Shown in pieces: positions 24,887-28,198 of a DNA stretch of 32,517 nucleotides. Numbering within the stretch: position 1 is the first letter of the stretch; each line of letters opens with the position of its first letter. The notes below the pieces were generated by a model. The model saw only the letters and a program-made list of their open reading frames with translations. It was not told where the DNA came from and ran no database searches. The stretch covers positions 1 through 32,517 of the forward strand of contig JAJBVI010000093.1 in NCBI GenBank assembly GCA_020859905.1, in the 5' to 3' direction. A program made the position numbers and the translations under genes. The stretch is from Lachnospiraceae bacterium. GTDB taxonomy: Bacteria > Bacillota > Clostridia > Lachnospirales > Lachnospiraceae.

Positions 24887-26956
24887 ATGAATCATGGTTT
24901 TATCAGGGTGGCCGCGCTCACACCGAAGGTGCGGGTGGCGGATCCGACATATAATAAAGAAAGAATCTGTGAGCTGATCAGTGCGGCGGAGGAGGAAGGG
25001 GCGCAGGTGATGGTGTTCCCGGAGCTTTGCATTACCGGATATACCTGCGGCGACCTGTTTTATCAGGAGCTTCTGCTTTCCGAAGCGAAGGAGGCGCTGT
25101 TTGACATTGCATCCTGTTCAGAGAAGGCGGATGCGGTTATTTTTGTGGGACTTCCTCTGGAATACAACGGGAAACTGTACAATGTGGCTGCCGTTGTCTG
25201 CGGCGGAGCTATTCTCGGTCTGGTTCCGAAGACCCATATTCCGAATTATAATGAGTTTTACGAGCACCGCCATTTTGTGAGCGGACCGAAAGAGCCGGTG
25301 CCGGTTCGGCTTGATGATGATCATATCGTCCCAATGGGGACACAGATTTTATTTGGCTGCCGGCAGATGCCGGGATTGAAGATCGGCGTGGAACTTTGCG
25401 AGGATCTCTGGGCGCCGGATCCGCCCAGCATCGGCCTTGCGATGGCGGGGGCGACACTGATTGTAAATCTCTCCGCCAGCGATGAGACGACCGGGAAGGA
25501 TATGTACCGCCGCGATCTGGTCAGCGGACAGTCCGCACGGCTGATCTGCGGCTATGTGTATGCGAGCGCGGGGGACGGCGAGTCCACGCAGGATGTGGTG
25601 TACTCCGGCCATAATCTGATCGCGGAGAACGGAATCGTCCTGGCGGAGTCCGCGCGGTTTGTCAATGAGAGCATTTACACGGAGATTGATATACAGCGGC
25701 TGAGAGAGGAGCGACGGCGCATGTCCACCTACGGGACGACGGATGCCGTGTATCTCGCCGCGGAGTTTAACCTGGGTGAGCGGCGCACGGAGCTGACCCG
25801 TTTTGTGGATCCGGCGCCCTTTGTGCCGGGGAAAAAGGCGGATCGCGAAAAGCGTTGCGAAGAGATATTCATGATCCAGGCGATGGGATTAAAAAAACGT
25901 CTGGAACACACCGGCAGCCGGGCTGCGGTGGTCGGCATTTCCGGCGGTCTGGATTCCACGCTGGCATTGCTGGTCACAGTGAAGGCATTTGATCTGCTGG
26001 AGAAAGACCGCAGCGGTATCGTCGCTGTCACTATGCCCGGGTTCGGCACGACCGACCGCACTTATGAGAACGCGGTCAGCCTGATCCGGTCTCTCGGCGC
26101 GACCTTCCGGGAGGTAAATATCGGGGATGCGGTGCGGATCCATTTCCGCGATATCGGACAGGACGAGAGCGACCACGATGTCACTTACGAGAACGGACAG
26201 GCCAGGGAGCGCACGCAGATTCTGATGGATATCGCAAATAAACTCGGCGGCATGGTCATCGGCACCGGCGACATGTCGGAGCTGGCGCTGGGGTGGGCGA
26301 CCTACAACGGAGATCATATGTCCATGTACGGTGTAAATGCCTCCGTGCCGAAGACGCTGGTGCGCCATCTCGTGCGTTATTACGCAGATGCCTGCGTGGA
26401 AAAATCCCCGAATGGAGATGTCGCGGAAACGGTTATGCGGCGCCATTACGCGGATGCCTGCGTGGAAAAAAACCTGCGGGATGTTTTACTCGATATCCTG
26501 GATACCCCGGTCAGTCCGGAACTGCTTCCGCCCGAGGACGGGGAGATTTCTCAGAAGACGGAGGATATCGTGGGTCCCTACGAGCTGCATGACTTTTTCC
26601 TGTACTATGTGCTGCGCTTCGGCTGCACGCCGAAGAAAATATATCGCCTGGCAAAATATGCGTTTGCCGGGACATACAGCAATGAAACCATCGAAAAATG
26701 GCTGCGGACATTTTACCGCCGGTTTTTCAGCCAGCAGTTCAAGCGTTCCTGCCTGCCGGACGGTCCGAAGGTAGGTACCGTTGCAGTGTCTCCGCGCGGC
26801 GATCTGCGTATGCCGTCTGATGCCAGCGCACGAATCTGGCTGGATGAGCTGGATACACTGCAGGAGGATGATGCGGCGGAGCATGAGAATGAAGATAAAT
26901 TGGATACCCTTGATAAAAAGTTAGATGCTGTATTTAAGGGGTTTATGAACGGGTGA
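24887..26956 (+). CDS. nadE: glutamine-dependent NAD+ synthetase
   Basis: NadE amidates nicotinic acid adenine dinucleotide to NAD+, using ammonia released from glutamine by its N-terminal nitrilase-type domain. The 689-aa two-domain form shows the glutaminase triad regions ([26 protein letters not shown], ~45-180) and the synthetase P-loop [13 protein letters not shown] (~350), then [23 protein letters not shown] and [15 protein letters not shown]. Between them a 22-residue in-frame tandem duplication repeats YADACVEK (~500 and ~522). If this loop tolerates it the enzyme is probably active. The DUF5674-like gene starts 23 nt downstream. Confidence 0.96.
26380..26470 (+). repeat. 66-nt in-frame duplication inside nadE
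   Basis: TTACGCAGATGCCTGCGTGG at 26380 recurs as TTACGCGGATGCCTGCGTGG at 26446, followed by AAAAA in both. The offset is exactly 22 codons, so the frame is kept. Confidence 0.9.
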
Positions 26957-26979
26957 GCCGGAACCGGGAGGAGTATGTC

Positions 26980-27324
26980 ATGTTAATTTTAGATAAAGAA
27001 GTCACAACAGATGAGCTGATGCACATGGAACCTCATATGTTTTTCGGCGATATGGTGAAATGTGTTGTTGATATTAAAAAAGAAATTCTGGCAGTGAACG
27101 CCGAGCTGCATGCTGATCTGGAATCTTATTTGCTGGAGCAAGGGTCTGCTCAATCAGATCTATATGGAATAAATATCCTGGATGACGGTGAAATAGAGTT
27201 TGATTCACTGATCAATCCGCCGCGCAACCGGGAAGCGGGATTCCCGAGAGCCGGGCGCTATGTGGCAGATCCTGCAGCGCGGAAAAAGATTGAGGAGGTT
27301 GTCGGACGATGGCTGAAGAAATGA
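26980..27324 (+). CDS. DUF5674-like protein, first gene of a two-gene cassette
   Basis: A 114-aa protein from ATG 26980, which has GGGAGGAG 6 nt upstream; the tracked GTG at 26953 overlaps nadE and adds non-family residues. The core FFGDMVKCVVDIKKEILAVNAELHADLES (~20-50) with SDLYGINILDDGEIEFDSLINPPRN matches my memory of DUF5674, a small widespread family without known function. The product lacks a signal peptide or membrane segment. Base use is AT-richer than in flanking genes. It overlaps the next gene, with which it forms a pair; such overlapping small-gene pairs are often toxin-antitoxin modules, but that is inference. Confidence 0.75.
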   Translation: MLILDKEVTTDELMHMEPHMFFGDMVKCVVDIKKEILAVNAELHADLESYLLEQGSAQSDLYGINILDDGEIEFDSLINPPRNREAGFPRAGRYVADPAARKKIEEVVGRWLKK

Positions 27325-27602
27325 AGTGGTGGAAAATGTCGATCGGTGAACAGATCGGAAATGCCGGCAGTGAAGTGGCAAGGGCGATTCGCCGCAAAAA
27401 TAAGAATGATATATTAGGTGCACAGGAGTTCTGTATTCATGCCATAGAAATGCTGTGCTATACGAAACAGGATCCGAAAAATGTAAACCGCAGGAATGAA
27501 TTATCTTATGCACAGGAGGAAATTCTGGATTATGTGTTAGGTGAGAATTTATATCAGAATGATGATCATTCCATTATGAAATGGTATGATGCTTTTTTGT
27601 AA
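27309..27602 (+). CDS. small protein, partner of the DUF5674-like gene
   Basis: A 97-aa cytoplasmic protein whose N-terminus (KWWKMSIGEQIGNAGSEVARAIRRKNK) matches a small unnamed family I recall as common next to DUF5674 genes in scattered bacteria. The rest is helical and ends MKWYDAFL. Start choice: 27309 has GAGGAGG about 9 nt upstream; 27321 gives an exact ATGA overlap with the first gene's stop and the family-like start MKWW. Either way the genes are translationally coupled. Base use is AT-rich compared with the flanks. Function unknown. Confidence 0.7.
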   Translation: MAEEMKWWKMSIGEQIGNAGSEVARAIRRKNKNDILGAQEFCIHAIEMLCYTKQDPKNVNRRNELSYAQEEILDYVLGENLYQNDDHSIMKWYDAFL

Positions 27603-27628: not shown

Positions 27629-27742
27629 ATGAATTTGACGTGCGATGAAGAGAATCGTGATGAAATTACGATATATGATCTGTTTGCAGGATACAGAAAA
27701 CGTTTCGGAAAACATTCAGATTCGAAGCGGAAGAAAGGATAA
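27629..27742 (+). pseudogene. 37-aa ORF, possible antitoxin C-terminal remnant
   Basis: ATG to TAA encoding MNLTCDEENRDEITIYDLFAG followed by a basic tail. The piece TIYDLFAGY resembles C-termini of some AbrB/MazE-type antitoxins, whose DNA-binding part is missing here. No good RBS precedes it. Too short for certainty; it may be a decayed fragment carried with the adjoining cassette. Confidence 0.3.
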
Positions 27743-27745
27743 CAT

Positions 27746-28198
27746 ATGCGCCTGACAACATTATGTTATATTGAGCGGGATGGGGCATATCTGATGCTGC
27801 ACCGCACGAAAAAGATAAACGACCAGAGCGGCGGGAAATGGCTCGGTGTCGGAGGTAAGTTTGAGGATGGGGAGAGCCCGGAGGAGTGTATGCTGCGGGA
27901 AGTGCGGGAAGAAACCGGACTGACGCTGACGAAATATGCTTTTCGGGGAATAGTCACGTTTGTGTCTGACTGCTGGGAGACGGAATATATGCATCTGTTC
28001 TCCGCCACAGAGTATGAGGGCGAGCTTCGCGGGTGCGACGAGGGAGTCCTTGAATGGGTGCCGATCAAAAAGGTGTGCAGCTTAAAACTCTGGGAGGGAG
28101 ACAGGATTTTCCTGAAACGCCTGCAGGAGAGCCGGGAGTATTTCTCCCTCAAGGTGGTGTATGAGGGAGAACGGCTTGCTGACTGGAGGTTTTTCTGA
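27746..28198 (+). CDS. NUDIX hydrolase, probable 8-oxo-dGTP diphosphatase
   Basis: A 150-aa MutT-type NUDIX enzyme. The box GKFEDGESPEECMLREVREETGL (~38-60) fits GX5EX7REUXEEXGU completely, so metal-dependent pyrophosphohydrolase activity is expected. The N-terminus LTTLCYIERDGAYLMLHRTKK and the C-terminal WEGDRIFLKRLQE are typical of the Firmicutes MutT/YtkD-like group that sanitises oxidised dGTP or related nucleotides. RBS AAGAAAGGA lies 6 nt upstream. Probably single; a repeat-rich gap follows. Confidence 0.9.
   Translation: MRLTTLCYIERDGAYLMLHRTKKINDQSGGKWLGVGGKFEDGESPEECMLREVREETGLTLTKYAFRGIVTFVSDCWETEYMHLFSATEYEGELRGCDEGVLEWVPIKKVCSLKLWEGDRIFLKRLQESREYFSLKVVYEGERLADWRFF

Follow-up and report, generated by a model that had tools for sequence, protein, structure and literature searches.

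A mobile, almost obligate gene pair of DUF5674 and a small helical protein may form a toxin-antidote-like module

What are the two small overlapping genes that lie between nadE and a NUDIX gene on contig JAJBVI010000093.1 of a Lachnospiraceae bacterium (assembly GCA_020859905.1), whose 32,517 nucleotides form the window analyzed here? Gene 1 (positions 26980..27324, + strand) encodes a 114-residue DUF5674 protein, and gene 2 (27309..27602, + strand) encodes a 97-residue partner predicted to be all-helical. An earlier note on this DNA had placed both genes in an AT-richer insertion, stated that their families co-occur in distant bacteria, and proposed a conserved but undescribed two-component module, possibly a toxin–antitoxin. 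We find that the two genes are a real, almost obligate pair, and that the pair is a stand-alone, horizontally moving unit. We put at roughly 55% the probability that this unit is a toxin-antidote-like module, in which DUF5674 would do the harm and the helical partner would protect against it.

The co-occurrence turned out to be far stronger than had been claimed. Scanning GTDB contigs with an alignment of DUF5674 proteins that included one hand-written probe sequence returned 80 loci from about 22 phyla. At 77 of them a partner of one profile family follows immediately downstream; at the other three (L099, L109, and L110) the downstream position is taken by a short helical open reading frame (ORF) of a third, diverged subtype. 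The genes overlap at 62 of the 77 loci, with an overlap of the NTGA type at 49, and these overlaps suggest that the two genes are co-translated. When 50 of these genomes were searched whole, the two families were found adjacent and at a ratio of about 1:1. The partner stands beside DUF5674 in 48 of the 50, and partners outnumber DUF5674 genes in one Calothrix only. The evolutionary distances within the two families are also correlated (mirror-tree r = 0.86, against a permutation maximum of 0.26). Two Calothrix loci (L112, 4494-5734; L324, 1837-2703) have two partner genes after one DUF5674 gene, which looks like a duplication of the partner.

Comparison within the genus establishes that the pair between nadE and the NUDIX gene is an insertion, as the earlier note had supposed. 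In genome G006 these two genes are about 22 nucleotides apart with nothing between them, whereas the nearest relative, G022, holds a short eroded remnant at the same site, with both cassette ends present and most of both genes deleted. A second site, between a radical-SAM gene and a gene for a 378-residue protein, carries the intact pair in G001 and G007, is empty in G024, and retains a gene 2 fragment alone in G002. According to blastn, the DNA common to the two insertion sites runs from 26965 to 27602 on the + strand (638 nucleotides, 77% identical to G001), and this ribosome-binding site with its two genes is the minimal mobile unit. The composition also agrees with the AT-richer patch described before: GC content is 45% in gene 1 and 39% in gene 2 versus 56% in nadE and 53% in the NUDIX gene, and the corresponding GC contents of third codon positions are 0.44 and 0.42 versus 0.66 and 0.65. 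The non-coding DNA flanking the pair is AT-rich to the same degree as the pair itself.

The wider distribution is equally scattered. An intact pair is present in 3 of 20 same-genus genomes, and DUF5674 is present in 1 of 349 genomes sampled from the window's phylum. It occurs in 64 of 145 Omnitrophota, 50 of 192 Patescibacteria, and 14 of 146 Cyanobacteria. Nostocales plasmids carry the pair, conjugative plasmids among them, and so does a 124-kb viral contig from IMG/VR, whose copy falls within the window's own clade in the tree; the starred clades of that tree mix phyla. No flanking gene family recurs at more than 3 of the 80 loci. The pair was not found in a phage genome collection queried with the window's sequences.

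When the pair decays, it does so in one direction. At 16 loci the DUF5674 gene is broken by a frameshift, an in-frame stop, or a deletion, or is reduced to a fragment, beside an intact partner (L014, L295, L296, L297, L298, which is the same locus as L324, L299, L300, L301, L303, L305, L306, L307, L321, L323, L327, and L328). The opposite state, an intact DUF5674 gene whose partner is broken or missing, was seen at no locus. Were both genes equally prone to break first, the one-sided probability of a 16:0 outcome would be about 1.5e-5, a figure that ignores relatedness among the loci. Intact partners without any DUF5674 were found at L311, L312, L314, and L318. Partners adjoining a broken DUF5674 gene have ratios of nonsynonymous to synonymous substitution rates (dN/dS) of about 0.12-0.3, similar to those of partners adjoining an intact one. 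The one-sided decay agrees with a toxin-antidote module whose putative harmful part is DUF5674; joined to the cassette-like mobility, it lends indirect, sequence-based support to the toxin–antitoxin suggestion of the earlier note.

Three Nostoc plasmid loci are arranged differently. In L013 (2998-5254), a TnpB gene separates a shortened DUF5674 gene from an intact partner. In L317 (1501-1842) and L326 (1486-1821), which are on two plasmids, distant partner homologues follow, after 4-5 nucleotides, the gene of a DUF3696 ATPase that matches the PADLOC protein NsnB with E ~1e-105 or better. A literature search on NsnB found nothing relevant.

The two proteins themselves are conserved. Gene 1, which had been called DUF5674-like, is a member of PF18924 in a hidden Markov model search (74.2 bits versus a cut-off of 27, E=1e-20; residues 3-110 on model positions 2-108/109), and all 47 of its aligned relatives match this family as well. 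Residues D31, H44, E48, L51, L52, G55, S56, Q58, and N79 are invariant in 48 aligned relatives. The window's clade departs from PF18924 in two places: two residues are absent ahead of the conserved P80, and an inserted EAGFPRAG follows the conserved N-R. The AlphaFold2 (AF2) monomer model of gene 1 has a predicted local distance difference test score (pLDDT) of 91 and a predicted template modeling score (pTM) of 0.85. Foldseek found no significant match to this model in the PDB, no solved structure is a sequence relative of DUF5674, and a viral structure library gave no match. A PADLOC SIR2 match of one of 48 members (E 0.0018, 15.6 bits) was judged to be due to chance.

Searches of Pfam, NCBIfam, PHROGs, and PADLOC gave no match for gene 2. 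Its product is predicted to be an all-helical bundle, weakly like FliS, and most of the solved structures that the partner profile matches are helical proteins of designed or coiled-coil type. The third subtype of partner is strongly diverged, about 90 residues long, and recognizable by a common C-terminal segment (L099, L109, L110, L306, and L309); it was found after DUF5674 in some Omnitrophota and Patescibacteria. No paper found by literature search mentions DUF5674, and the description of the pair as a conserved but undescribed two-component module holds within the family libraries and literature searched. One natural copy, L087, has both genes in a single frame. With its stop read as glutamine and the product modeled by AF2 as a single chain, it gave a pLDDT of 89.5 and a pTM of 0.73 with a disordered linker. 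For two domains joined by a disordered linker this pTM is high, and it suggests a defined interface between the two proteins.

On the reading that we favor, we infer direct binding of the two proteins, toxicity of DUF5674, and neutralization by the partner. DUF5674 would be a conserved alpha/beta component, probably enzymatic or ligand-binding, that is harmful when free. Its downstream, faster-evolving helical partner, translated from the overlapping start, would bind it one-to-one and keep it harmless. The unit, which has neither promoter nor transposase, would insert between or behind chromosomal genes and depend on their transcription. Several observations weigh against such a module. The pair is single copy in 47 of 50 genomes, and addiction modules are often multicopy. 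On the + strand, neither the two genes nor the DNA upstream of them showed a promoter-like site, none of 45 partner proteins matched a DNA-binding family, and we thus did not find the DNA-binding antitoxin with an autoregulated promoter that is usual, if not universal, in type II systems. A known toxin motif was seen in neither protein. The interface is read from the pTM of one fused chain, the broken loci are mostly from Nostocales and not fully independent, and retention of the partner could reflect a function of its own.

The main rival, which we hold to be possible if rather doubtful, is a useful non-toxic complex of two subunits (a stress regulator, or an enzyme with a small subunit resembling a chaperone) that is transferred between genomes and lost when unneeded. 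The mostly single-copy state would suit such a complex, as would the occurrence of the pair in Patescibacteria genomes <1 Mb and the lack of an addiction-type promoter. Both genes are under strong purifying selection (in a comparison of two related genomes, dN/dS is ~0.04 in gene 1 and ~0.06 in gene 2), and a set of polar residues that vary little or not at all (K27, D31, H44, D46, E48, S56, Q58, and N79) resembles an active or binding site. A non-toxic complex nevertheless leaves unexplained why it is DUF5674 that breaks first, beside a partner still intact in 16 cases out of 16, why presence is so patchy, and why the pair is eroding in the window's genus. Carriage on the viral contig and on conjugative plasmids, along with the partner homologues directly behind the NsnB-like ATPase, could instead point to an anti-phage module of the abortive-infection type, or to a phage-borne counter-defence module, whose harm is released on infection. 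Neither protein matched a known anti-phage system in PADLOC above chance-level scores, and no defence-gene neighbors repeat within 4 kb of the loci, which makes this reading improbable in our judgment. We give least credence to an exchange of roles, with the helical partner as toxin and DUF5674 as antidote. HEPN-type toxins are small helical proteins too, but intact partners without DUF5674 are common, an intact DUF5674 without a partner was never seen, and the partner alignment has no RX4-6H motif.

The 5′ neighbor of the pair is nadE (24887-26956) and its 3′ neighbor is the NUDIX gene (27746-28198), and both of the ORFs reported between them were confirmed: gene 1, the predicted harmful component, by its PF18924 match, alignment, and AF2 monomer, and gene 2, the predicted antidote, by a start conserved in relatives and by its partner profile family. 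Gene 2 could start at 27309, giving a 16-nucleotide overlap (27309..27324, + strand), or at 27321, giving an ATGA overlap. We prefer 27309 because the ATG there, which precedes the gene 1 end by 15 nucleotides, recurs in relatives, namely the viral contig, an uncultured Eubacterium, and the two copies from the same genus. The ATG at 27321 was found in the window's copy alone among the copies compared. Most distant copies have the 4-nucleotide overlap. No terminator was seen within 26965-27602.

Two neighboring features are of separate interest. The ORF at 27629, which the earlier note had taken for a possible antitoxin-like fragment, encodes 37 residues; we rejected that identification because the ORF matched no protein family and the nearest relative has nothing that corresponds to it. 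It is most likely a chance ORF, and chance ORFs of at least 40 residues are frequent in this stretch. Within nadE, positions 26373-26470 hold an in-frame near-duplication (YYADACVEK...HYADACVEK) of about 22 extra residues, which is absent at that place from 18 same-genus nadE copies and either arose by recent duplication or is an artefact of assembly.

Should DUF5674 prove to be a toxin, a Pfam family with no assigned function would gain one, and a two-gene system spanning >20 phyla would come into view. Its carriers make up about 44% of the sampled Omnitrophota and 26% of the sampled Patescibacteria, two lineages with few studied systems of this kind. Even if the pair is non-toxic, its near-obligate pairing means that the two proteins need to be studied jointly.

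It is useful to contrast the pair with known systems. Likeness to HEPN/MNT modules (HepT/MntA) lies in a helical protein beside an alpha/beta protein with no DNA-binding part. Gene order and folds were not shown to match, and we rejected this assignment because the partner alignment has no RX4-6H and the DUF5674 alignment no GSX10DXD. FliS chains are the best fold matches of the helical half (TM 0.57-0.63) and have weak profile similarity to it. Kinship was rejected on Foldseek E values of 0.7-9, hhalign probabilities of 1-8% with controls run, and the lack of a Pfam FliS match; the pair further differs from FliS in having no flagella link, and the window's genome has no FliS match. The DUF5674 model has weak fold matches to cytidine deaminases (TM 0.3-0.43), and in hhalign its beta-beta-helix with H44-A-D46 aligns to their HAE segment. 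DUF5674, however, has HAD rather than HAE, no PCxxC, and no conserved cysteine, and kinship was rejected here as well (Foldseek E ~4-8; hhalign P 0.05, controls run).

Type II toxin–antitoxin systems (BrnTA, HigBA, MazEF, and others) share several traits with the pair: small, adjacent, overlapping genes that co-occur obligately, one-sided decay in which the putative toxin is not kept without its antitoxin, and a patchy, mobile distribution that includes plasmid carriage. The pair differs from them in lacking a known toxin fold or motif, a DNA-binding antitoxin, and its own promoter; because a DNA-binding antitoxin and a known toxin motif are missing, we file it under no known family. Tentatively, it could represent a new toxin-antidote family in >20 phyla, in which a DUF5674 toxin, whose fold has no close solved relative and is at best a distant likeness of deaminases, would be restrained by a small helical chaperone of FliS-like type, with relatives that have also been recruited beside an NsnB-like defence ATPase.
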